A stretch of 64,000 nucleotides of DNA from Incurvaria masculella (Eukaryota > Arthropoda > Insecta > Lepidoptera > Incurvariidae): positions 15,872,001 to 15,936,000 of the forward strand of contig OX335657.1 in the NCBI GenBank assembly GCA_946894095.1, written 5' to 3'. This document shows positions 2,096 to 63,047 of this stretch, piece by piece (the stretch's first letter is position 1; every line of letters starts with the position of its first letter). The notes under the pieces are model-generated. The model searched no databases and was not told where the DNA came from. It worked only from the letters and a program-made list of their open reading frames with translations. A program made the translations under genes and the position numbers.

Positions 2096-2424
2096 TTCGT
2101 GTGTGCCTTAGCTCCCTAACAATATCCCCCATTTAATATTACGCAAGCGCGAAGAAAAAAATAACAAAACGCTAATTGCAAAAATAACAGCTTTCAGATT
2201 GCTTCGAGCAGCCCTTTGTACCGCCGCCTTTGCTTCGGCCGCCCGCGTATTTTTTGCCCGGCGTGGGCGTAACTTCTTTTCATTACGGACGCAAATGTTG
2301 AACTTGCCTAATTGAGTTGTAAAGCTTCTCCGAGCTGCCGGTCGATTCCACCTGACGTCTAACGAAAAAGTCGCATTCAAGCAAATTGGACGTCTATTCG
2401 ACATTTTTGAAATGAAGCGCTACA
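2096..2424. other. unassigned stretch, moderately GC-rich centre
   Basis: The part at 2140-2400 is richer in GC than its surroundings and has a 98-codon open frame on the minus strand. The predicted peptide is basic and low in recognisable motifs. I see no domain, splice context or repeat partner for it, so I do not call a gene. Confidence 0.3.
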
Positions 2425-2551
2425 CTGGTAAATAAGTACTGAACTCGTATTAAATGACTAAACTGGCAAACAAAGTACTAAGCTTGTACAGTACTAAACT
2501 GGTAAATAAAGTGCTAAACTGGTACAGGACTTAAACTGGTAAACAAAATAC
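2425..2551 (+). repeat. short degenerate tandem repeat
   Basis: About five imperfect units of 20-28 bp follow the pattern CTAAACTGGTAAATAAAGTA (variants CTGGTACAG, CTGGCAAAC). The array stops at the TTAA element that begins at 2552. Confidence 0.7.
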
Positions 2552-3052
2552 TTAAGGTTGGCCATCCCGCTCAACTCCCCATACAAACGGGGAAAGAAGA
2601 TCACGCCCATATTTCTTGTCGGAGATCCAAATTTTTGCTCAAAATTGCTTTAATTGATCAAACTAGATGTCTGATGACCGTTGGCATTGTAAAATTGTGT
2701 TTGGTTTCTAAGTTATAAGGTCCGAAAGTTCGAATTTTTCGCGCGTTTTAGGCAGTAACTTTGGAGGTGGATTTCGCAATGATAAAGTAAGAACATCTTA
2801 AAAAGATTAGTCATCCGACATAGCTTATTTAATCAAGATTTATAATCTATTTGGTTTTTGTAAGATTTTTTACTACAGCGGTCGTGGTTTAGTTTTAGCT
2901 ATAAGTCGTTTTGTAATAAGAATTTTCGTAAATCTTACCAAATCACACACTATGCACATTGTCTTTTTTGTGGACTGGTTGCATCTTCCTCATCACGGAG
3001 CATGTCTTTTTCTTTGAAACAGAGAAGGTCCCAGCGCGCAACAGCTTGGTTA
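2552..3052 (+). mobile_element. TTAA MITE family a, right-truncated copy
   Basis: It begins CTTAAGGTTGGCCATCCCGC and runs co-linear with the full-length copy at 34278-34814. It is lost shortly after GCGCAACAGC, so the right terminal repeat is missing. Confidence 0.8.
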
Positions 3053-3128
3053 GATTTATTGATTAAAAAGATAATTGCAAAAAAAAGAAAAAATATTTAG
3101 TAAATCACGAACGCTGTATCATCGCATC

Positions 3129-3280
3129 GAGTGAACGATGGTCGACGAGGCAATGAAAATTGTCCGTGTTTTCCATCCAGTTCAATGCAGCGCAACAGAA
3201 GGTCCTGGCATGCCACCTAGTTACTGTGTAGTGTTATTGGCGAATATCAATGATAGTAGTGGAGTAGCTATCCATGTCGT
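3129..3280 (+). mobile_element. SINE fragment (3' half)
   Basis: It contains the SINE body CGATGGTCGACGAGGCAATG, GTCCGTGTTTTCCATCCAG, then a diverged tail with GCTATCCATGTC. The tRNA-like head and poly(A) are absent. Confidence 0.7.
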
Positions 3281-4377
3281 TTACTAAATATTACATTAGA
3301 ATGTGGTTACTTACGCAAAACTCTTAAGATTATTTTATTCAAATTTGTATGGGACAAAGCAGTCTATCTGAACAGACGTATGTAAGAATTTTTAAGATAT
3401 GAGGACGCAAGATACATATCGTGCACTCATATTGTACTTTACAATCCGAGCATTCCTTGGCTGTGCACAATAAACAAACCACTCTATGAAATGGGGCAGG
3501 TCGCAAAGCCGCATAATGCGATGGCGCGCACCCGCCGCAAAAAGCGGTCACGATGCGGTTGTCGGGGCGCAGGTGAAGACTCCAAGAATACTCCGATGGT
3601 TGCTCGGCTCGTAAGGAAAGTAGCAATAAATAACAGGCCACCGCAATATGTATGCGAGATCCGTCCGGCGGCCTCGCTCCGGTCGTCGCTGGATAACGCT
3701 CGCTCAGCTTGGAATTAGCTGAGCGTATGCACGAATTATTTGTGCACGCGGGATTGGATTTCATGGAACACTATAGGCCACCTTCCCTATTTATTCTAGA
3801 GTTTGGGACCATCCCATTGAACTCAATATGATACAAGCAGCAATTATAATGTTCCGTGTTTTTCCAGCTCGATGAACGCGTGGTCACATGTCACTGGTAT
3901 TTTCCTAGAATTTGCTATTACGGGCTGACATCATGACACTATTTTATTATAGCCTAGCATGCCAAATAAAATTATCGATGTATCCGCGTTTCTTGCTATT
4001 CTAGTATCATAAATTCTAATAATAAAATGTAACAAACTCGAGTGCAGCGTTGCTATGGATAAACAATGAACAATTAATAACAGTACACCCAACAAATAAT
4101 AATCTGGTTACGGCATGGGCAATGTAGAAGTTAATGTAGAATGTAGAAGAAGCAGCAGATATTCGATCCAAGGATTACAATACCTATAAAATGTAAGCAT
4201 TTATGTAAATATACTCAATTAATATTATATATCAGGTAAATGTGTATTTTACTATATTATGTACATTAACTGAGCTCTAGAAATTGTTTTCTTTTAAGTA
4301 AACATTCATGGAGTAGAAACTGTTGTCGCAGTTGTAAACGGTTTTAAAAATCATTTCTCTCTCTGCACTGCACTGAG
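3281..4377. other. no recognised feature
   Basis: AT-rich DNA. An open frame on the minus strand at 3339-3764 (141 codons, starting at a possible ATG) has no motif I recognise and is overlapped by an equally anonymous + frame. No repeat partner was found in this window. Confidence 0.3.
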
Positions 4378-26689: not shown

Positions 26690-27617
26690 ATCTTGTATCA
26701 GCTTCACAGCTAACTGCATTTTGTATCATCTTCACTACGAAAAGTATTTGAATATTGTATCGAATTCGTCGCCGAATAAAGCTGCATTTTGTATCAGCTT
26801 CATTACAATATTTTGCTGCATCTTTTATTAGCTACACCACGAAATGTAGCTTAATTTTGGATCGGCTTGACCACGAAATGTAGCTGCATTTTGATTGAGC
26901 TTCATAACGAACTGAAGCTTCATTTCGTATCGGTTTCACCACGATATTTTTTTGCCGTATTATTATTTTATGTATTTTCGACGTGCAGCATCTACGTTTC
27001 AGCGTGGGCTTAAATGCTTTCGTATGTCGGGCTGTCCAGCTTATCTCCTGTACAGGTCGCATTTCTCAACCGATTCTCGTGTATTTTTGTGAGCAGGTTC
27101 GATAATTGTATGGAATTTTTTGTCGATTCAGTTTTTGGAAACTTTCTTTTTTTTTTTGTCTAAAATTGTCCCTAAGCGTTAGGTACTTAATAAAGTGAGA
27201 TAAATACGAGAAAAATAATAGGATTTATATTTAAGGTGCGCGGTGAACATTTATTCAGTAAGCTATCTAAAGACAGACTCGCGTGGTCTACAGCTCAGAG
27301 AGCCACTAGTTTCACCACGTTATGTAGCTGAAATTTGTGTCGGATTTACCACGTAATATAGCTGCATTATTTATCGGTTTCACCTCGAAATGTAGCTACG
27401 TTTTGTATCGGTTTCACCTCGAAATGTAGCTACGTTTTGTATCGGTTTCACCTCGAAATGTAGCTACGTTTTGTATCGGTTTCACCTCGAAATGTAGCTA
27501 CGTTTTGTATCGGTTTCACCTCGAAATGTAGCTACGTTTTGTATTGGTTTCACCTATAAATGTAGCGGCGTTTTGTATCGGTTTCACCTCGAAATGTAGC
27601 GGCGTTTTGTATCGGCT
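26690..27617 (+). repeat. 34-bp minisatellite, diverged left half and regular right half
   Basis: From 27312 to 27617 there are about nine tandem units of 34 bp (TTTCACCTCGAAATGTAGCT followed by ACGTTTTGTATCGG). Four or five consecutive units are essentially identical. From 26690 to 26960 the same unit is recognisable but diverged (GTAGCTGCATTTTGTATCAG with variable spacing). A 259-bp transposable element (27053-27311) splits the array. Open frames across it reflect the repeat. Confidence 0.9.
27053..27311 (+). mobile_element. dispersed element ending CCACTAGT (copy 2), inserted in the minisatellite
   Basis: It shares both ends with 22760-22918 (AGGTCGCATTTCTCAACCGA; CTCGCGTGGTCTACAGCTCA) but has a longer interior. 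Confidence 0.65.
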
Positions 27618-37650: not shown

Positions 37651-37957
37651 TTTTTAGGGTTCCGTACCCAAAGGGTGAAAACGGAACCCTATTACTAAGC
37701 CTCCGCTGTCCGTCCGTCCGTCCGTCCGTCTGTCCGTCTGTCACAGGGCTGTATCTCAGTAACCTCAACAGGTAGACAGCTGAAATTTTCACAGAGTCTG
37801 TATTTATTTTGCCGCTACAACAACAAATAGGTAAGATTAAAAAATAATTTAAAATTAAAGGGGGCTCCCATACAAAAAACGTGTTTTTTTTGGTTTTTTT
37901 TTACGATGGTACGGAACCCTTCGTGTACGAGTCCGACTCGCACTTGGCCGGTTTTTT
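37651..37957 (-). repeat. MINE-1-like element, complete
   Basis: TTTTTAGGGTTCCGTACCCA, (GTCC)n at about 37708-37740, CCCATACAAAAAACGTG and GCACTTGGCCGGTTTTTTT in order. Confidence 0.88.
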
Positions 37958-49692: not shown

Positions 49693-50330
49693 TCGCGAGC
49701 ACCTTCTACCGCTGCAGCTACTAAATGTAGGTGACTGTACCCGCCATTTTCTGGATACCTATTAGCGTGCAATGTTCGACCTCAATTTACTTCTCAAATC
49801 ATAGGCGAATATAAAATAAAATAGTCGTCGAATAACGGTTGGAATAACCAATAAATAACAAAAAAGTCGTCGAAAACTAGTCGGAATGAAAATCTAGAAC
49901 CGATTCATTTCAAAATTAAACTGAACACGCTCTCCATGTTTGGTATTAATTTCAAGTCCACTAAAAGTTACTTGCTAACAAAGATGTTTCACGATGAAAC
50001 TGACAGCTGCGTGCTGCGACACAACCCTACCCACTTTTTTTATTTATTGCATTACAACTTAACAAATTATGCAACGTGACAAACCTATTGATAAATATTA
50101 GCAAAATTACGCAATGATTTATTTTTTATGCCAATTTTGCCTTTACAAATTCTAAAAAAGCACAAGACCCAAAACATAGAACATAAAAAAAAATATTTTG
50201 GTCGTAAATAATACCATAAAAGCGTACACTCTAAAAAACATTAGGGCGTTTTATTATGTAGATTTGAAACGTCGGTATTAATAAGTATAAAACTGAGTTT
50301 TGGATCCAATGTGTTTTGGAATTTGTGCTT
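49693..50330. other. no recognised feature
   Basis: AT-rich. GTTTTGGATCCAATGTGTTTTGG near 50297 is faintly similar to 25868-25900. Confidence 0.3.
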
Positions 50331-50583
50331 TTTAGGCTTCCGTACCCAAAGGGTGCCAACGGAACCCTATTACTAAGCCTTCGCTGTCGGTCCGTCCTTC
50401 CGTCTGCCACAGGGCTGTATCATGAACTGTAATAGGTAGGCAGCTGAAATTTTCACACAACAAGTCGGTGAAAATTAATAACAATAAAAAAGAAATACAG
50501 AAAACGTGTTTTTTTAAAGTTAAATCTTGTATGATGTTACGGAACCCTTCATGTGCGAGTCCGACTTGCACTTGGCCGGATTT
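50331..50583 (-). repeat. MINE-1-like element, shortened
   Basis: TTAGGCTTCCGTACCCAAAG through TGCACTTGGCCGGATTT. The middle is shorter than in other copies. Confidence 0.85.
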
Positions 50584-51074
50584 ATGACTGTATGATGCAC
50601 CCCCTTTAATCATAAACTTTTATGTTTTACAGGAGCGTTTCGCTTGCAAAATTCCAGCAGTAATTCCAGACTGAATATTAGTTGTTAATGGCCTACGGCT
50701 ACAGACCTCACTTAGCCATTAACCTTCCGATAACAATACCAATTCTCTCGATTTTATGGTCCCCCTACTCCCGGGTTCGTTTCGCATACAATTTCATTTT
50801 ATAGCGCAAAGAAGGTTAAAGTAGACCCTAGGCGTGGTGTCCTTATAGTTGGAGGTCATACGGACCCTATTTGCATACTTACGAAGCTTTCCAAACCCTC
50901 TTCGGGTAGATTAAATGTTCGGTAACGCGACGCTGAATAGGGTAGACGGGCGTGGATTAGGCTAGTCCGATCTCCGTGGGTAAGGGCAAATCACTATCAC
51001 TATCTCTATCACTACATAGTATAAAACAAAGTCGCTTTCTCTGTCCCTATATCCCTATGTCCCTATATCCCTAT
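50584..51074. other. no recognised feature; CCCTAT microrepeat at right
   Basis: TATCCCTATGTCCCTATATC at about 51048-51073 is a short tandem repeat. The rest is anonymous. Confidence 0.35.
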
Positions 51075-52516: not shown

Positions 52517-53019
52517 CCTTTCTCTGTGCCATGCATTTAGATAGCGCGTGTGCGCGCAAGTGTAGTGGAATCGGCTGACTCGATCACAATACAAAATTCG
52601 GCGAGTTGCCGGGAACGGTAAGGGGTAAGTCGGATCGGGAGAAATTGTGTGAATTGGATACGGTGGACAGGCGAGGAGGCCTGCAGCCCACGCCGACGCT
52701 CACCCAATAGGTGCCCGACGACGCCCATGGGCTTTTCAACTTTCGAACGCTCGAATTTCGATTGGGACAGAGTCCAACTATAGCTAATCTTTAAGCCGAT
52801 TAGGTGAATTGTTGTTTATTGTTGTTTGTAAAATTTAATAATGGCGAACACACGCGCACCGAAATTTTAAATATAATTATTAGAATATTACAATTAGCGT
52901 AAACAATGGATAGCAACAATTAAAACGCAGTTTAATTAAATTAAATTCATTTCGGACTTCTAACCGTAATCATTTATTTTCATTTTATTTATTTTTTTAT
53001 TTTATATGAAAATATATTT
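52517..53019. other. no recognised feature; left flank of the PLE locus
   Basis: Becomes very AT-rich towards 53000, which is the target into which the PLE structure is inserted. Confidence 0.35.
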
Positions 53020-53033
53020 ATAAAATATTATAA
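53020..53033. repeat. left target-site duplication of the PLE locus
   Basis: ATAAAATATTATAA, identical to 62223-62236. It abuts the 3' end of the left full PLE unit. The last A may belong to the element. Confidence 0.8.
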
Positions 53034-53506
53034 CTGGTTATGGTGCTGTCTCTATAACAAACACAAAAACAACAATCGTTGTTATTAATATTATGTCCGC
53101 CTACAGAACCAATACGGTAAAAACAACTAAATAAGTAAATAAATTAATAAATAATAAAATAAATAAGAAAAACAGCTAATCTGGTTGTATGTAGCTGAAC
53201 GCCCCCTCTTGTGTCCCGCGCCGCCGTCTCTATGCGGATCGGATGGCGCGAGCCGCGCCCCTGGAGCTGCAATGGGGTGCAGGGAGTGCAGGATCGGGAA
53301 TCGGGAGCCGATCCTGAAACATAACATAGATATCGTAAAAAGCAGTAATATTTCGGCATTCGCCGTTATCAAACTGAATTTTATTTGCTATGGCAACGGT
53401 GTTTTTAATTTTGGCATCGTGTGAAAAAGTAGGGTCGATTGCCAGCACCACGCATTCATGGTATTGTCAATCTATACTACTGTTAGAATGTTCTTCTGTG
53501 CGGATA

Positions 53507-55729
53507 TCAGTGCATTTTGTTGAGGCCCTCATTAAAATGTGCTCCGAATTGCCAGATATAAGATAATTCGTAAGTTTTTAAGTCAATTTCGGTTGTTGAC
53601 TTTGAAAATGTTCTTACAATCCGCACAGTGAAACATTAATTGAATGTCGTGTTGTGTGTTCGTGCGTGTGTAGGTATTGGTAATGTAGTTTGTGCGGATG
53701 AGTTTACCGAATGCCTGTGTCCATTCATGCGAATGTGTAGTGGCGTAATCATTTCTCCAATATAAAACGCGTTGCAGAACCTACACTCTAGGATATAAAT
53801 GCAGTTTTTTGTTAAGCAATTAGCGGAACAGAAAATGCGGAATGGATGTGTCATGTGATGTGTTTTTATTGTAGTATTTGTGTTTATAATAGCGCATGTT
53901 TTGCATCGGGGGCGCAGACAAGGTTGTGTACCTAGTGGCGTGTCTGTATTGTTTGGAGTGTATTTTTTATTTAGAATAGATTTAAGATTTTTATTTTGTC
54001 TGTATGATATCTGTATTTTATTGGGGAGTAGTTCTTTGGTCAGATTGTGTGTTTGTAAAATTGGCAATAAATTTTGAATAGCATTTTTAATTTTTTGCAC
54101 CCCATGAAAATATTTCGTAGTGAGTCTAATTTGGTTCGTGTTGTTAGTGTTGTGTATTTGTGACCTAGCATGCCTGGATTTTTTAGAAAAATGTTTTTTA
54201 ATGAATTTAGAGGGATAATTTCGTTGTTCTAGGGCATCTGTAATAATTTTGTCGTATGTTTCCAAACTATGTGTGTTGTTGCAAATTCTGTTACCGCGCA
54301 CCGCAAGACTATTAGGAATACTCCGCTTAGTGTGAGATGGGTGACAGCTATCGAAGTGTAGGTACTGCAATTTGTTTGTCGGTTTGAAATGAACGGAAGT
54401 TATGAATGTTTTGTCAATGAATGTGATATCCACATCGAGAAAGGTGATTGTGGAATCTGATATGGTGTACGTGAAGTCAAGGCAGCTAAACGAGTTGAGA
54501 GCATCAAGGAATACCGACAGTGAATCCCTGCCATGAGTCCAAATTGCAAAAATGTCATCAATAAATCTTACCCAACACAATGGTTTTAAACATTGAGAAT
54601 TTAGAAAATCGATTTCCAATTTCCCCATAAATAAGTTTGCATACGAGGGAGCCATGCGCGTGCCCATGGCTGTGCCCTTAATTTGCCTATAAAATTTGTC
54701 CTCAAAAGAAAAGAAATTGTTTTTTAGGACCAAATCTGTTAAATCAATTAAGAATTTTGAAGAAATTGTGTGAGGAAATTGGCGTCTTTCTAGGAAATGA
54801 TTCACCGTTTGTAGTCCCTGATCGTGTGGAATGTTAGTGTATAATGAGACTGCGTCAATTGTGACGATCAGTATGTCAGTGTTGTCTGGAATTTTGACTC
54901 TTTTAAGAGCTTCCAAAAAATCTTGTGTGTCCCTAATGTGTGAAGGTAGGTTTTTTGTTAGTGGTTGTAAGTGAAAGTCCACAAAACTAGAGACCCTTTC
55001 GGTGGGACATCCACAAGAGGCAACAATAGGTCTACCGGGGTTGTTTGTTTTGTGCACCTTTGGAAGCATGTAAAAGTGAGGTGTAGTGGGATGAGGTGGA
55101 ACTATTGTTAGGATATCAGATTTGGACAAACCCTCCGCAGGTCCAGATTGTTTGATATAATCCCTTATGGTTTTGGTAATTTCATCGCATGGGTCTTTGT
55201 CCAAAATTTGATAAAATGTGGTATCGTTTAGCTGCCTATAGCCTTCCGTTATGTAGTCAGATTTGTTTAGTATAACTGTTGTTGATCCCTTATCTGCTGG
55301 TAGAATGACAATCTCATTGTCGTTTTTTAAATTTTGTAGAGCTTTTTGCTCTTGGGGTGATAAATTTTGACCTTTTGATTGCAAAGTTTTGAGAAAACTT
55401 TGGCTCGAAAATTTTGCCAAAAGTTGGGCAGAGAAGATTTCCAAAGGATGACTAGCAGGTAAGGGGGGTGGTTCGTGGGGTGAAGGTAATTTGAATTTGT
55501 CTAAAGACTCGTGCAACGTGTTTGTTTGCGCGATATGATTGGGTGGCTTATTCATCCAAAAATATTTCCATTTTAGATTTCTACAAAATTTTACAATATC
55601 TTTAGTAAGTTCAATTTTGCTAAATTCCGTAGTCGGACAAAAGGAAAGACCTTTGTCTAAAACACATTGCTCGAGTCTTGTGAGTGTATGAGAGGAGAGG
55701 TTGAGAATATTGTTGTTATGTTGTATCAA
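53507..55729 (-). pseudogene. PLE ORF2 (RT + GIY-YIG), nonsense-truncated copy
   Basis: Same protein as the intact copy at 59583-61805 up to residue 697. There GAA (Glu698) has become TAA at 53636-53638. The remaining 43 codons to the original stop (53507-53509) are still readable. Lost residues include the conserved C-terminal part of the GIY-YIG domain: the glutamate at 721 likely to bind metal, and the final GLN motif. A second change, ACG to ATG, replaces Thr660 by Met directly after the YIGE motif. The RT domain (catalytic Asp292, Asp391 and Asp392) is unchanged. The copy would yield an RT without a working endonuclease. Both changes are absent from the other copies that cover these positions, so they postdate the source RNA or arose at its reverse transcription. 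Confidence 0.92.
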
Positions 55730-56378
55730 ATGACACTTGAGACAAGTGTGGGATGTGATGGGTATGAGCGCTAGAGGATATGGAATGAGAGGGATTTGGT
55801 TCGAGTGAAGGAGCCTTAAATTGGGGGGTGAATGAATGAAATGGCGATGCTTGTGATGGTGATGAGAGTTTTGATGGCGGTGGCGGCAGACTAAAAAGAA
55901 ACTCGGAATTAGTGTCCAAAAATGTTAAGCCAAGAGAAGGGGCAATTAACGGATCGAATGGAATAGGGATATTTGAATCAGTGTAGAAAATAATTAGTTT
56001 AGAGAATTTATTTGATAGTTGCGATAAATTTTGTTCCATTTTATTTTTTGCCTGCGCCAAAATTTGTTTTATGTCCATGAATATACTTGGAAAAGCGACT
56101 AACGCCACTTTGAGTGTGTTCGTGAGTAATTGTTTGTGATGTATGCAAAGAGAACCGTATTGTTGGTGGAGTGTGTGCGTCATTTGTAACCCAAAACTGT
56201 ATTGTAATGTGATGAGGGAAGCTCTGATAGGGGGGGGAATTGCTGCCAGAGGCATTTTTAACATGAGTCCCTTCGGGGCTATTCCGCAGTCGAAACATCT
56301 CCTTAGGAACTCATAGTGGCCAAAATATTGTGCAAGCTTATGGCTGTGATAATAAATCTGATCGAGAACTTCCTCCAT
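55716..56378 (-). CDS. PLE ORF1, 220 aa (left copy)
   Basis: Amino-acid sequence identical to the right-hand ORF1 (58934-59596), and described there. It starts with ATG at 56376-56378, 148 nt inside the unit's 5' start. It overlaps the downstream ORF2 frame by the same margin as in the right arm, so the two-frame arrangement is inherited by both arms. Since the associated ORF2 is broken, this copy is intact in itself but belongs to a damaged element. Confidence 0.8.
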   Translation of the reverse strand: MEEVLDQIYYHSHKLAQYFGHYEFLRRCFDCGIAPKGLMLKMPLAAIPPPIRASLITLQYSFGLQMTHTLHQQYGSLCIHHKQLLTNTLKVALVAFPSIFMDIKQILAQAKNKMEQNLSQLSNKFSKLIIFYTDSNIPIPFDPLIAPSLGLTFLDTNSEFLFSLPPPPSKLSSPSQASPFHSFTPQFKAPSLEPNPSHSISSSAHTHHIPHLSQVSFDTT

Positions 56379-56471
56379 TTAGAGTAATGTGAAAAGTGTA
56401 AATAAATGAATAAATATGATAAATAGGAATAATAAAAGACAAAACGGTAAAGGTCTGTAGGTTTCAGAAGC

Positions 56472-56508
56472 CCTGACAGAGCCACGTGGGTGCACGGAGG
56501 CCGTCAGG
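56472..56508 (-). ncRNA. PLE 5' leader hairpin (left copy)
   Basis: Inverse of 58804-58840: CCTGAC/GTCAGG, GCC/GGC and CGTG/CACG stems with a 4-nt loop. Confidence 0.6.
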
Positions 56509-56526
56509 ATCGCAAGCGCGACTAAA

Positions 56527-57918
56527 ACTGGTTATGGTGCTGTCTCTATAACAAACACAAAAACAACAATCGTTGTTATTAATATTATGTCCGCCTACAG
56601 AACCAATACGGTAAAAACAACTAAATAAGTAAATAAATTAATAAATAATAAAATAAATAAGAAAAACAGCTAATCTGGTTGTATGTAGCTGAACGCCCCC
56701 TCTTGTGTCCCGCGCCGCCGTCTCTATGCGGATCGGATGGCGCGAGCCGCGCCCCTGGAGCTGCAATGGGGTGCAGGGAGTGCAGGATCGGGAATCGGGA
56801 GCCGATCCTGAAACATAACATAGATATCGTAAAAAGCAGTAATATTTCGGCATTCGCCGTTATCAAACTGAATTTTATTTGCTATGGCAACGGTGTTTTT
56901 AATTTTGGCATCGTGTGAAAAAGTAGGGTCGATTGCCAGCACCACGCATTCATGGTATTGTCAATCTATACTACTGTTAGAATGTTCTTCTGTGCGGATA
57001 TCAGTGCATTTTGTTGAGGCCCTCATTAAAATGTGCTCCGAATTGCCAGATATAAGATAATTCGTAAGTTTTTAAGTCAATTTCGGTTGTTGACTTTGAA
57101 AATGTTCTTACAATCCGCACAGTGAAACATTCATTGAATGTCGTGTTGTGTGTTCGTGCGTGTGTAGGTATTGGTAATGTAGTTTGTGCGGATGAGTTTA
57201 CCGAATGCCTGTGTCCATTCATGCGAATGTGTAGTGGCGTAATCGTTTCTCCAATATAAAACGCGTTGCAGAACCTACACTCTAGGATATAAATGCAGTT
57301 TTTTGTTAAGCAATTAGCGGAACAGAAAATGCGGAATGGATGTGTCATGTGATGTGTTTTTATTGTAGTATTTGTGTTTATAATAGCGCATGTTTTGCAT
57401 CGGGGGCGCAGACAAGGTTGTGTACCTAGTGGCGTGTCTGTATTGTTTGGAGTGTATTTTTTATTTAGAATAGATTTAAGATTTTTATTTTGTCTGTATG
57501 ATATCTGTATTTTATTGGGGAGTAGTTCTTTGGTCAGATTGTGTGTTTGTAAAATTGGCAATAAATTTTGAATAGCATTTTTAATTTTTTGCACCCCATG
57601 AAAATATTTCGTAGTGAGTCTAATTTGGTTCGTGTTGTTAGTGTTGTGTATTTGTGACCTAGCATGCCTGGATTTTTTAGAAAAATGTTTTTTAATGAAT
57701 TTAGAGGGATAATTTCGTTGTTCTAGGGCATCTGTAATAATTTTGTCGTATGTTTCCAAACTATGTGTGTTGTTGCAAATTCTGTTACCGCGCACCGCAA
57801 GACTATTAGGAATACTCCGCTTAGTGTGAGATGGGTGACAGCTATCGAAGTGTAGGTACTGCAATTTGTTTGTCGGTTTGAAATGAACGGAAGTTATGAA
57901 TGTTTTGTCAATGAATGT
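56527..57918 (-). mobile_element. PLE left 5'-truncated unit
   Basis: It begins inside ORF2 at codon 436 (Thr of the TFIDKTF stretch) and continues through the complete 3' end, joined to the full unit at 56526/56527. Identical to the full unit apart from the 5' loss. Confidence 0.9.
57001..57918 (-). pseudogene. PLE ORF2 C-terminal 305 codons (left truncated unit)
   Basis: Residues 436-740: the end of the RT, the linker, the Cys/His motif and the whole GIY-YIG domain, with an intact stop at 57001-57003. Glu698 and Thr660 are normal here. No start codon of its own; it is a truncation product. Confidence 0.9.
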
Positions 57919-57928
57919 TTATATTATA
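57919..57928. other. central junction filler of the PLE palindrome
   Basis: Ten AT-only bases (TTATATTATA) not assignable to either truncated unit. They lie between codon 436 of the left unit and codon 615/616 of the right unit. Composition resembles the target flanks. Confidence 0.75.
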
Positions 57929-58310
57929 TATAAACACAAATACTACAATAAAAACACATCACATGACACATCCATTCCGCATTTTCTGTTCCGCTAATTG
58001 CTTAACAAAAAACTGCATTTATATCCTAGAGTGTAGGTTCTGCAACGCGTTTTATATTGGAGAAACGATTACGCCACTACACATTCGCATGAATGGACAC
58101 AGGCATTCGGTAAACTCATCCGCACAAACTACATTACCAATACCTACACACGCACGAACACACAACACGACATTCAATGAATGTTTCACTGTGCGGATTG
58201 TAAGAACATTTTCAAAGTCAACAACCGAAATTGACTTAAAAACTTACGAATTATCTTATATCTGGCAATTCGGAGCACATTTTAATGAGGGCCTCAACAA
58301 AATGCACTGA
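57929..58310 (+). pseudogene. PLE ORF2 C-terminal about 125 codons (right truncated unit)
   Basis: Encodes the histidines of the Cys/His motif and the complete GIY-YIG domain to the native TGA. It lacks the RT and the three cysteines. The in-frame codons upstream (57915-57930) are junction sequence. Confidence 0.9.
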
Positions 58311-58785
58311 TATCCGCACAGAAGAACATTCTAACAGTAGTATAGATTGACAATAACATGAATGCGTGGTGCTGGCAATCGACCCTACTTTTTCACACGA
58401 TGCCAAAATTAAAAACACCGTTGCCATAGCAAATAAAATTCAGTTTGATAACGGCGAATGCCGAAATATTACTGCTTTTTACGATATCTATGTTATGTTT
58501 CAGGATCGGCTCCCGATTCCCGATCCTGCACTCCCTGCACCCCCATTGCAGCTCCAGGGGCGCGGCTCGCGCCATCCGATCCGCATAGAGACGGCGGCGC
58601 GGGACACAAGAGGGGGCGTTCAGCTACATACAACCAGATTAGCTGTTTTTCTTATTTATTTTATTATTTATTAATTTATTTACTTATTTAGTTGTTTTTA
58701 CCGTATTGGTTCTGTAGGCGGACATAATATTAATAACAACGATTGTTGTTTTTGTGTTTGTTATAGAGACAGCACCATAACCAGT
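57929..58785 (+). mobile_element. PLE right 5'-truncated unit
   Basis: It begins in ORF2 at about codon 615 and runs to the complete 3' end (ACCATAACCAGT), joined to the full unit at 58785/58786. It carries two private changes: A at about 58348 where the others have C (AATAACATG against AATACCATG), and one extra C in CTGCACCCCCATTG. Confidence 0.9.
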
Positions 58786-58803
58786 TTTAGTCGCGCTTGC
58801 GAT

Positions 58804-58840
58804 CCTGACGGCCTCCGTGCACCCACGTGGCTCTGTCAGG
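58804..58840 (+). ncRNA. PLE 5' leader hairpin
   Basis: CCTGAC (58804-58809) pairs with GTCAGG (58835-58840), GCC (58811-58813) with GGC (58829-58831), and CGTG (58816-58819) with CACG (58824-58827) around the loop CACC. It lies 19 nt inside the unit, right after the tandem junction. Some PLEs carry hammerhead ribozymes in this region. The conserved core CUGANGA...GAAA is not present here, so I call only a structured leader. Confidence 0.6.
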
Positions 58841-58933
58841 GCTTCTGAAACCTACAGACCTTTACCGTTTTGTCTTTTATTATTCCTATTTATCATATTT
58901 ATTCATTTATTTACACTTTTCACATTACTCTAA

Positions 58934-59596
58934 ATGGAGGAAGTTCTCGATCAGATTTATTATCACAGCCATAAGCTTGCACAATATTTTGGCCACTATG
59001 AGTTCCTAAGGAGATGTTTCGACTGCGGAATAGCCCCGAAGGGACTCATGTTAAAAATGCCTCTGGCAGCAATTCCCCCCCCTATCAGAGCTTCCCTCAT
59101 CACATTACAATACAGTTTTGGGTTACAAATGACGCACACACTCCACCAACAATACGGTTCTCTTTGCATACATCACAAACAATTACTCACGAACACACTC
59201 AAAGTGGCGTTAGTCGCTTTTCCAAGTATATTCATGGACATAAAACAAATTTTGGCGCAGGCAAAAAATAAAATGGAACAAAATTTATCGCAACTATCAA
59301 ATAAATTCTCTAAACTAATTATTTTCTACACTGATTCAAATATCCCTATTCCATTCGATCCGTTAATTGCCCCTTCTCTTGGCTTAACATTTTTGGACAC
59401 TAATTCCGAGTTTCTTTTTAGTCTGCCGCCACCGCCATCAAAACTCTCATCACCATCACAAGCATCGCCATTTCATTCATTCACCCCCCAATTTAAGGCT
59501 CCTTCACTCGAACCAAATCCCTCTCATTCCATATCCTCTAGCGCTCATACCCATCACATCCCACACTTGTCTCAAGTGTCATTTGATACAACATAA
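58934..59596 (+). CDS. PLE ORF1, 220 aa
   Basis: Starts at an ATG 148 nt into the unit and ends TAA at 59594-59596. Residues 1-60 include HYEFLRRCFDCGIAPKGL, reminiscent of the N-terminal module seen upstream of the RT in several Penelope-like elements (from memory, unchecked). Residues about 100-130 (IKQILAQAKNKMEQNLSQLS) are helical and possibly coiled-coil. Residues about 163-215 are rich in Ser, Pro and His (run of four Pro near 165) and likely disordered. No catalytic motif. Function is unproven; RNA binding or RNP assembly would fit. Its last 69 codons overlap the open ORF2 frame (59388 onward) in the +1 frame, so ORF2 could be made as a fusion by frameshifting or splicing. Identical in the left arm. 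Confidence 0.85.
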   Translation: MEEVLDQIYYHSHKLAQYFGHYEFLRRCFDCGIAPKGLMLKMPLAAIPPPIRASLITLQYSFGLQMTHTLHQQYGSLCIHHKQLLTNTLKVALVAFPSIFMDIKQILAQAKNKMEQNLSQLSNKFSKLIIFYTDSNIPIPFDPLIAPSLGLTFLDTNSEFLFSLPPPPSKLSSPSQASPFHSFTPQFKAPSLEPNPSHSISSSAHTHHIPHLSQVSFDTT

Positions 59597-61805
59597 CAAC
59601 AATATTCTCAACCTCTCCTCTCATACACTCACAAGACTCGAGCAATGTGTTTTAGACAAAGGTCTTTCCTTTTGTCCGACTACGGAATTTAGCAAAATTG
59701 AACTTACTAAAGATATTGTAAAATTTTGTAGAAATCTAAAATGGAAATATTTTTGGATGAATAAGCCACCCAATCATATCGCGCAAACAAACACGTTGCA
59801 CGAGTCTTTAGACAAATTCAAATTACCTTCACCCCACGAACCACCCCCCTTACCTGCTAGTCATCCTTTGGAAATCTTCTCTGCCCAACTTTTGGCAAAA
59901 TTTTCGAGCCAAAGTTTTCTCAAAACTTTGCAATCAAAAGGTCAAAATTTATCACCCCAAGAGCAAAAAGCTCTACAAAATTTAAAAAACGACAATGAGA
60001 TTGTCATTCTACCAGCAGATAAGGGATCAACAACAGTTATACTAAACAAATCTGACTACATAACGGAAGGCTATAGGCAGCTAAACGATACCACATTTTA
60101 TCAAATTTTGGACAAAGACCCATGCGATGAAATTACCAAAACCATAAGGGATTATATCAAACAATCTGGACCTGCGGAGGGTTTGTCCAAATCTGATATC
60201 CTAACAATAGTTCCACCTCATCCCACTACACCTCACTTTTACATGCTTCCAAAGGTGCACAAAACAAACAACCCCGGTAGACCTATTGTTGCCTCTTGTG
60301 GATGTCCCACCGAAAGGGTCTCTAGTTTTGTGGACTTTCACTTACAACCACTAACAAAAAACCTACCTTCACACATTAGGGACACACAAGATTTTTTGGA
60401 AGCTCTTAAAAGAGTCAAAATTCCAGACAACACTGACATACTGATCGTCACAATTGACGCAGTCTCATTATACACTAACATTCCACACGATCAGGGACTA
60501 CAAACGGTGAATCATTTCCTAGAAAGACGCCAATTTCCTCACACAATTTCTTCAAAATTCTTAATTGATTTAACAGATTTGGTCCTAAAAAACAATTTCT
60601 TTTCTTTTGAGGACAAATTTTATAGGCAAATTAAGGGCACAGCCATGGGCACGCGCATGGCTCCCTCGTATGCAAACTTATTTATGGGGAAATTGGAAAT
60701 CGATTTTCTAAATTCTCAATGTTTAAAACCATTGTGTTGGGTAAGATTTATTGATGACATTTTTGCAATTTGGACTCATGGCAGGGATTCACTGTCGGTA
60801 TTCCTTGATGCTCTCAACTCGTTTAGCTGCCTTGACTTCACGTACACCATATCAGATTCCACAATCACCTTTCTCGATGTGGATATCACATTCATTGACA
60901 AAACATTCATAACTTCCGTTCATTTCAAACCGACAAACAAATTGCAGTACCTACACTTCGATAGCTGTCACCCATCTCACACTAAGCGGAGTATTCCTAA
61001 TAGTCTTGCGGTGCGCGGTAACAGAATTTGCAACAACACACATAGTTTGGAAACATACGACAAAATTATTACAGATGCCCTAGAACAACGAAATTATCCC
61101 TCTAAATTCATTAAAAAACATTTTTCTAAAAAATCCAGGCATGCTAGGTCACAAATACACAACACTAACAACACGAACCAAATTAGACTCACTACGAAAT
61201 ATTTTCATGGGGTGCAAAAAATTAAAAATGCTATTCAAAATTTATTGCCAATTTTACAAACACACAATCTGACCAAAGAACTACTCCCCAATAAAATACA
61301 GATATCATACAGACAAAATAAAAATCTTAAATCTATTCTAAATAAAAAATACACTCCAAACAATACAGACACGCCACTAGGTACACAACCTTGTCTGCGC
61401 CCCCGATGCAAAACATGCGCTATTATAAACACAAATACTACAATAAAAACACATCACATGACACATCCATTCCGCATTTTCTGTTCCGCTAATTGCTTAA
61501 CAAAAAACTGCATTTATATCCTAGAGTGTAGGTTCTGCAACGCGTTTTATATTGGAGAAACGATTACGCCACTACACATTCGCATGAATGGACACAGGCA
61601 TTCGGTAAACTCATCCGCACAAACTACATTACCAATACCTACACACGCACGAACACACAACACGACATTCAATGAATGTTTCACTGTGCGGATTGTAAGA
61701 ACATTTTCAAAGTCAACAACCGAAATTGACTTAAAAACTTACGAATTATCTTATATCTGGCAATTCGGAGCACATTTTAATGAGGGCCTCAACAAAATGC
61801 ACTGA
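59583..61805 (+). CDS. Penelope-like element RT with GIY-YIG endonuclease, 740 aa, intact
   Basis: Copies element RNA at the target by target-primed reverse transcription, the endonuclease nicking the DNA. Residue order: DKG motif at 146-148 (LPADKGSTT), characteristic of PLEs; fingers GRPIVASCG about 232-240; motif A TIDAVSLYTNIPHDQG with Asp292; motif B GTAMGTRMAPSYANLFMG 352-369; motif C FIDDIFAIW with Asp391/Asp392; then the YL-FDSCHPSHTKRSIP region. C604, C609, C612 and His624/625/628 form the Cys/His motif before the nuclease. GIY-YIG: CIYILEC 643-649, YIGET 656-660, Arg667, Glu721, final EGLN 734-737. The listed start is a TTG. The frame is open from 59388 without any ATG, and the first ATG is Met59 (59757), still upstream of DKG. 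Expression may therefore use a +1 frameshift from ORF1, an intron, or the internal ATG. Length matches canonical PLEs. Confidence 0.95.
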   Translation: MIQHNNNILNLSSHTLTRLEQCVLDKGLSFCPTTEFSKIELTKDIVKFCRNLKWKYFWMNKPPNHIAQTNTLHESLDKFKLPSPHEPPPLPASHPLEIFSAQLLAKFSSQSFLKTLQSKGQNLSPQEQKALQNLKNDNEIVILPADKGSTTVILNKSDYITEGYRQLNDTTFYQILDKDPCDEITKTIRDYIKQSGPAEGLSKSDILTIVPPHPTTPHFYMLPKVHKTNNPGRPIVASCGCPTERVSSFVDFHLQPLTKNLPSHIRDTQDFLEALKRVKIPDNTDILIVTIDAVSLYTNIPHDQGLQTVNHFLERRQFPHTISSKFLIDLTDLVLKNNFFSFEDKFYRQIKGTAMGTRMAPSYANLFMGKLEIDFLNSQCLKPLCWVRFIDDIFAIWTHGRDSLSVFLDALNSFSCLDFTYTISDSTITFLDVDITFIDKTFITSVHFKPTNKLQYLHFDSCHPSHTKRSIPNSLAVRGNRICNNTHSLETYDKIITDALEQRNYPSKFIKKHFSKKSRHARSQIHNTNNTNQIRLTTKYFHGVQKIKNAIQNLLPILQTHNLTKELLPNKIQISYRQNKNLKSILNKKYTPNNTDTPLGTQPCLRPRCKTCAIINTNTTIKTHHMTHPFRIFCSANCLTKNCIYILECRFCNAFYIGETITPLHIRMNGHRHSVNSSAQTTLPIPTHARTHNTTFNECFTVRIVRTFSKSTTEIDLKTYELSYIWQFGAHFNEGLNKMH

Positions 61806-62222
61806 TATCCGCACAGAAGAACATTCTAACAGTAGTATAGATTGACAATACCATGAATGCGTGGTGCTGGCAATCGACCCTACTTTTTCACACGATGCCA
61901 AAATTAAAAACACCGTTGCCATAGCAAATAAAATTCAGTTTGATAACGGCGAATGCCGAAATATTACTGCTTTTTACGATATCTATGTTATGTTTCAGGA
62001 TCGGCTCCCGATTCCCGATCCTGCACTCCCTGCACCCCATTGCAGCTCCAGGGGCGCGGCTCGCGCCATCCGATCCGCATAGAGACGGCGGCGCGGGACA
62101 CAAGAGGGGGCGTTCAGCTACATACAACCAGATTAGCTGTTTTTCTTATTTATTTTATTATTTATTAATTTATTTACTTATTTAGTTGTTTTTACCGTAT
62201 TGGTTCTGTAGGCGGACATAAT

Positions 62223-62236
62223 ATAAAATATTATAA
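62223..62236. repeat. right target-site duplication of the PLE locus
   Basis: ATAAAATATTATAA, exact match to 53020-53033. Confidence 0.8.
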
Positions 62237-62308
62237 AATATTTATATAATAATCATATTTGCAAGCAACGGGATAGGTCTTGTGATTGCGCTGTTAGCTT
62301 TTGTGTCC

Positions 62309-62605
62309 TTTTTAGGGTTCCGTACCCAAAGGGTGAAAACGGAACCCTATTACTAAGCCTCCGCTGTCCGTCCGTCCGTCAGTCCGTCTGTCCGTCTGTC
62401 ACAGGGCTGTATCTCAGTAACCGTAACAGGTAGACAGCTGAAATTTTCACAGAGTGTGTATTTATTTTGCCGCTACAACAACAAATAGGTAAGATTAAAA
62501 AATAATTAAAATTAAAGGGGGCTCCCATACAAAAAACGTGTTTTTTTTTTACGATGGTACTGAACCCTTCGTGTGCGAGTCCGACTCGCACTTGGCCGGT
62601 TTTTT
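62309..62605 (-). repeat. MINE-1-like element, complete
   Basis: TTTTTAGGGTTCCGTACCCA to ACTCGCACTTGGCCGGTTTT. Closest in detail to 37651-37957 (shared CAGTAACC and GGGGCTCCCATAC variants). Confidence 0.88.
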
Positions 62606-62770: not shown

Positions 62771-63047
62771 AAAAAAACCTGCCAAGTGCGAGTCGGACTC
62801 GTACACGAAGGGTTCCGTACCTTCGTTCCAGATTTAACACAAAACAATCACGTTTCTTGTCCGGGCGGGCATTAATTTTAATTTTATTTTGACTATTTGT
62901 TGTTATATCGGCAATAGAAATACACACTCTGTGAAATTTTCAGCTGCCTACTTACTACGATTCATGATATGCGGGCCGCTGCTGACAAACGGCGGAGGCT
63001 TATTAATAGGGTTCCGTTGACACCCATTGCCTCCGGAACCCTAAAAA
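62771..63047 (+). repeat. MINE-1-like element, opposite orientation
   Basis: AAACCTGCCAAGTGCGAGTC to CCGGAACCCTAAAAA. The GTCC tract is lost and the middle diverged. It stands head-to-head with 62309-62605. Confidence 0.82.

Follow-up and report, generated by a model that had tools for sequence, protein, structure and literature searches.

Head-to-head Penelope-like element insertions in Incurvaria masculella: a probable case of two-sided target-primed reverse transcription with asymmetric start sites

How do two arrays of a retroelement come to lie head to head within a single target site duplication? The question is raised by a palindrome of Penelope-like elements (PLEs) at positions 53020–62236 of the window, i.e., the 64,000-nucleotide stretch of Incurvaria masculella DNA analysed here (contig OX335657.1, positions 15,872,001 to 15,936,000). 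The route of PLE insertion is unsettled. In the rotifer Adineta vaga, head-to-head copies have inverted pLTRs within one duplication, with a tail that is regarded as optional, and self-priming from an antisense template is the favoured explanation (PMC3846280). The purified Poseidon PAc enzyme of Anolis, which favours AT-rich DNA, was able to cleave both strands and to extend each of them, with two adjacent start sites that bound a tail (PMC11167929). In PMC8969392, inverted pLTRs and 3' extensions appear as peculiarities of single copies. The evidence presented below makes it highly probable that the window's locus is one PLE insertion, produced by target-primed reverse transcription from both sides of the cut with asymmetric start sites.

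As described in an earlier note on this DNA, each arm of ca. 4.3 kb comprises a 5'-truncated PLE unit followed by a full one (unit period 3494 bp), and in both arms the 3' ends point outward and the truncated 5' ends inward (Table 1). The count of about four differences given there was also correct: in a self-BLAST alignment of 53085–57382 with the inverted 57929–62227, the 4299 columns contain four mismatches and one gap (99.9% identity). One of the mismatches sits in the right target junction, while the remaining three are substitutions located elsewhere. Two of these are private to the left full unit, and one of the two cuts the endonuclease short by a premature stop; the third lies in the right partial unit. 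The 14-bp target duplication reported around the whole was confirmed as well, and it reaches 15 bp when the preceding shared base is included; ATAAAATATTATAA is found at 53020 and 62223, with no further occurrence in the window on either strand, and a 14-bp repeat was reached by one of 20,000 dinucleotide shuffles of the two flanks. The truncation points of the two arms are 536 nt apart, the left partial unit being the longer one, and the outer end of the left array lies ca. 51–56 bp deeper into the next unit than that of the right array, an extension that had escaped the earlier note and is referred to here as the tail. A short near-palindrome is present at the centre. A likeness of the AT-only filler to the target was set aside, as such DNA would probably show it by chance. 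The full units of the two arms have in common 12 variants that none of the other insertions in the comparison shows, with two private variants in the left unit and none in the right one, and hence both come from one source; these shared variants fit one RNA as well as two, as the source copy may itself carry them.

Table 1. Features of the head-to-head PLE insertion (window coordinates)
Feature	Position	Strand	Remarks
Left target site duplication	53020..53033	+	exact match to 62223-62236; 15 bp (53019-53033) with the shared T
Tail, 3' extension of the left array, unit positions 1-51	53034..53084	-	probable distal start of reverse transcription
Left full PLE unit	53085..56578	-	two private substitutions
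RT/endonuclease ORF of the left full unit, 697 aa	53636..55729	-	shortened within the endonuclease
N-terminal ORF of the left full unit, 220 aa	55716..56378	-	
Left 5'-truncated PLE unit, unit positions 2155-3494	56579..57918	-	
10-bp AT-only filler between truncated 5' ends	57919..57928	none	
Right 5'-truncated PLE unit, unit positions 2691-3494	57929..58733	+	
Right full PLE unit, no tail	58734..62222	+	probable proximal start of reverse transcription
N-terminal part of the PLE protein, 220 aa ORF	58934..59596	+	tblastn of relative P0001
Reverse transcriptase and C-terminal GIY-YIG endonuclease, 740 aa ORF	59583..61805	+	frame different from that of the N-terminal part
Right target site duplication	62223..62236	+	exact match to the left copy

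Judged by its coding sequence, the element is an endonuclease-bearing PLE. Its reverse transcriptase domain matches RVT_1 (E 2.8e-9), and the best relatives of the window's protein show 58% identity at 99% query coverage; these are taken to be PLEs on the grounds of domain order and of general knowledge of the group, and not of a tree. Among relatives of named source the leafhopper Macrosteles heads the listing, while no relatives came from one protein scan of viral contigs or from one tail-pattern scan of prokaryote contigs. At the C-terminus the GIY-YIG domain (PF01541) is matched with E values of 0.0044 and 0.00062, both short of Pfam's curated cut-off; this cut-off is passed by the 58% relative P0001. 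The endonuclease motifs IYILEC...FYIGET...RMNGHR could be aligned. The N-terminal part of the protein and its remainder lie in separate frames in both window arms. Among the 22 listed arms or copies with a length of 2.6 kb or more, nine keep a single frame of 960–964 aa. Further PLE traits are the pseudo-LTR-forming tandems of a partial and a full unit, present in the window's arms and in other insertions, the target site duplication, and the short 3' tail on part of the ends. A hammerhead ribozyme is usual, not universal, in the pLTR of PLEs; neither a CTGANGA core on either strand of 52900–62400 nor an Rfam hammerhead match was found here.

Head-to-head insertion is a common mode in this family and not a one-off. 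In a genome search (552 Mb, 31 contigs) the best 30 of 1814 candidates were scored, and the 87 matches fell into 29 clusters (set 1), of which 18 are head-to-head with outward 3' ends, ten are one-directional, and one is rearranged. As set 1 favours the longest copies, and set 2, introduced below, those closest at the 3' end, neither choice being random, the value of 18/29 is no genome-wide rate. About a third of the insertions are one-sided (10/29 clusters in set 1, 11/30 loci in set 2). A duplication of at least 11 bp encloses the entire palindrome in 16 of the 18 head-to-head insertions among the best 30 of 1814 candidates, versus none of 306 mismatched flank pairs, so that further copies with outward 3' ends around one duplication, for which the earlier note had suggested a search, do exist in the assembly. 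The duplication of C24:1.67 has only 8 bp, a length also reached by 18 of the 306 mismatched pairs, and for C24:9.28 none was found by flank comparison; that of C5:6.79, in T-rich sequence, has 13 bp by one scoring and 9 bp by another. The remaining 15 duplications of set 1 are AT-rich (0.84 AT), and in the 15 target sites oriented by the tail no clear asymmetric motif was seen by eye. The same note had suggested looking for an empty allele with a single target; the window's own insertion yielded no empty site, but element-free paralogues of four other two-sided insertions (two for C25:8.78, one for C22:1.31, two for C5:6.79, one for C8:13.02) and of a one-sided one carry the target once, at 84–100% identity. 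The empty copy of C8:13.02 is 100% identical over 289 bp; it is a local duplicate of the target (L015:986-1274), and the insertion is therefore probably younger than the duplication. Sister arms agree in their subfamily marker in all 16 scored pairs of set 1, a 17th being assigned by its flank, which fits one RNA as well as two. In five of 17 cases of set 1, compared over at most the last 600 nt, the sister arm is less similar than an arm of some other insertion, for which, in young subfamilies, few later mutations suffice.

Several further features of these copies were observed as well. About 1.9 kb of other sequence with a 455-aa ORF interrupts the tailed arm of the two-sided insertion L025 and L019 (C9:7552103-7561774), another two-sided insertion, L032 (C18:6844456-6844928), has a 0.47-kb insert inside its right arm, and tandem repeats spaced at 54 bp (L011:1-1331, C22) directly adjoin a one-sided copy.

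The outer ends of 21 insertions with a duplication (17 two-sided and four one-sided) form two clusters, at unit positions -9 to 0 and 46 to 53. Copying would thus start at one of two sites ca. 55 nt apart, a tail marking the distal start. One tailed and one tail-less end were found in all 17 scorable two-sided insertions of set 1 (best 30 of 1814 candidates), the chance of which is 7.6e-6 if the ends are chosen independently; the ten one-sided copies, six tailed and four tail-less, use either site. They were left out of this count together with C24:1.06, which is rearranged and shows no ends, and C24:9.28, whose partner arm has no 3' end. Set 2 was obtained with the last 204 bp and the tail as a query and comprises 30 loci from the best 40 of 1923 scored candidates, each with one tailed end by selection. 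The prediction that the partner end has no tail was recorded before scoring, although an earlier listing had already shown some inverted partners ending before the tail, so that the test was not fully blind there. In all 14 two-sided loci with both 3' ends visible (best 40 of 1923) the partner was tail-less, with a chance of 0.5 to the 14th, ca. 6e-5, if start sites are independent; these outer ends were judged by eye, their coordinates being ambiguous by a few bases. The duplications have 13–15 bp in 13 of the 14 loci and 9 bp in L055, a length reached by two of 306 mismatched pairs. The rest of set 2, left out of the count, consists of 11 one-sided loci, three whose partner has no 3' end (L066, L074, L068+L076), and two without resolved ends (L067+L077 and L072).

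Taken together, one tailed and one tail-less end occur in 31 of 31 scorable two-sided insertions. The earlier note had proposed that both strands of one staggered cut primed reverse transcription, the two cDNAs meeting in the middle, in a symmetric manner. Priming of both strands is supported by the outward 3' ends, the duplications, the empty paralogues, and the one-tail rule; symmetry is contradicted at the level of the RNA by the pairing of a distal with a proximal start, and the way the cDNAs met may differ in the 6 of 14 short pairs with coinciding stops described below. No statement of the one-of-each rule was found in the accessible parts of the literature searched (including PMC3846280, PMC11167929, PMC8969392, PMC8848866, and PMC12910113). 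The exceptions are four head-to-head copies whose partner arm has no element 3' end, i.e., C24:9.28 (L035, C24:9283569-9286825) and the three such loci of set 2; no duplication was found at their flanks, and they may result from a deletion or from priming inside the element. The tailed arm is the longer one in 13 of 17 insertions of set 1 (p 0.049), a difference on which no argument is based. Because the z-scores of tail hairpin folds are weak (-0.21 to -1.32 in four pieces) and the fold varies among variants, nothing is inferred from them. Nor is anything claimed from the overlap of 0–6 nt between target end and template, which may be near chance and inflated by the maximal-match definition of the duplication.

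In set 1 the sister arms are truncated at points 122–1710 nt apart (17/17), and at the centres there is an overlap of 0–4 bp or a filler of 1–18 bp. The shorter copies of set 2 have overlaps of up to 9 bp and fillers of up to 49 bp, and in 6 of 14 pairs the sister arms end within 30 nt of each other, versus 2.6 expected from re-pairing (1% of re-pairings reach six). Favoured stops explain part of this coincidence, as 10 of the 11 one-sided copies of set 2 halt in the same stretch, at unit 3170–3284. Coinciding stops would also be expected from a shared end of one RNA, or from self-priming. Two of the six coinciding pairs, L060 and L062, join at a small palindrome near unit 3263–3289, a setting in which pairing between two cDNAs of like polarity is possible, and joining by hairpin may contribute in short copies with coinciding stops. 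Frequent truncation points of short copies, both one- and two-sided, were noted at unit 3204 and 3263–3298 (window 61937 and 61996–62031); the latter stretch contains a small GC-rich palindrome, which raises the question of favoured reverse transcriptase stops. In L063 and L070, counted as one-sided, the truncated 5' end bears an inverted piece of 15–16 nt resembling a snap-back.

These features bear on the competing explanations. In self-priming, published as a proposal for rotifer Penelope palindromes (PMC3846280, accessible part), the first cDNA, or the product of an antisense transcript, folds back and primes the second copy to give a hairpin. Near-identical arms, the near-palindrome at the window's centre, the coinciding truncations in 6 of 14 short copies, and the inverted pieces of L063 and L070 speak for it, but with inner ends as far apart as in all 17 pairs of set 1 the hairpin needs a long loop. 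Moreover, the second copy should repeat the outer end of the first, whereas the tail is on one end only in 31/31, the six coinciding pairs included, and every outer end lies on one of two defined start sites beside the target duplication, which makes self-priming unlikely. Counted against two-sided priming, in turn, are the coinciding stops, the L063 and L070 pieces, the four exceptions, the one-sided third, C24:1.67, the five of 17 arms with a closer match in another insertion, and the absence of a start-site difference between strands in the in vitro data (PMC11167929).

Twin priming of the LINE-1 type also employs both target strands, which prime on the element RNA, the second strand priming inside the same RNA and leaving an inverted 5' piece; the four exceptional copies, with the outer end of the partner arm internal to the element, resemble its products. 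There, however, the start of the inverted segment is internal to the element and the overlap of the cDNAs is minimal, while here element 3' ends stand on both sides in 31/31 and the arms overlap along the entire shorter arm, so that an origin of this kind is very improbable for this main class. The preference of PLEs for AT-rich sites, reflected in the composition of the 15 duplications, might bring two independent insertions of opposite orientation to one place. That this happened is extremely improbable, as one duplication lies outside both arms, the arrangement recurs in 18 of 29 clusters whose flanks differ (best 30 of 1814 candidates), the arms of an insertion are of one subfamily, and the empty sites carry the target once. 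Long palindromes are also a known assembly hazard; nevertheless, a fold-back artefact is extremely improbable, and so is the inverted duplication of a single array at a later time, given outer flanks that are unrelated and yet carry the duplication, outer arm ends that differ, and a pattern found on many contigs.

Two-sided priming with asymmetric starts would proceed as follows. The element nuclease would cut both strands of an AT-rich target ca. 13 nt apart, leaving, to judge by the duplications, 3' overhangs, and both 3' ends would prime on element RNA of one source, one strand starting at the distal site, with the tail, and the other ca. 55 nt upstream, without it. The two antisense cDNAs would extend towards each other, and their ends would be joined, probably by end joining, with an overlap of a few bases or a short filler, in some short copies at the small palindrome of the element. 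Fill-in would then give outward 3' ends with a single target duplication outside. Facing 3' ends on 3' overhangs, if both prime, account for the outward 3' ends, the inward truncations, and the one duplication. Tentatively, and with slightly more doubt than conviction, the palindrome may be regarded as what a single asymmetric integration complex normally produces. Both 3' ends of one staggered cut would be placed on two fixed start sites ca. 55 nt from each other, which probably lie on the same RNA molecule, kept in place by a protein dimer. Each full reaction would give exactly one tailed and one tail-less cDNA, and failure of either cDNA would leave a one-sided copy; the coinciding stops in short copies would then mark the broken end of the one RNA.

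Head-to-head PLE copies and in vitro extension of both strands have already been published (PMC3846280 and PMC11167929, accessible parts). The PLEs of A. vaga resemble the window's element in having tandem partial and full copies, an inverted pLTR, one outer duplication (8–10 bp), and a short tail on one inverted pLTR; in the accessible part of PMC3846280 the inverted piece detailed is mostly a pLTR of ca. 0.2 kb, with long tandem or inverted structures mentioned for Pen3 and Pen4, while in the present family the arms range from ca. 27 bp to several kb and the duplications have mostly 13–15 bp. Poseidon PAc shares the C-terminal GIY-YIG domain, the AT-rich targets, and the two start sites bounding the tail; it differs in that the data are in vitro, a hammerhead ribozyme is present, and the available text of PMC11167929 reports no strand difference in the start site. 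The main text of that paper uses the word "inverted" a single time, in connection with a blocked dT, and thus does not treat inverted copies in genomes. The two-sided insertions link both views by providing genomic evidence for priming on both strands, and the presence of one tailed and one tail-less end is a rule that every model must meet and gives a reason for the "optional" tail. A retrotransposon that copies from both sides of a cut could serve RNA-templated DNA insertion tools.

Apart from the palindrome, the window contains many copies of a dispersed repeat of ca. 0.3 kb (62309–62605, 62772–63047, 50324–50589, 37651–37957, and others) and, at 27309–27615, a minisatellite of nine 34-bp units.
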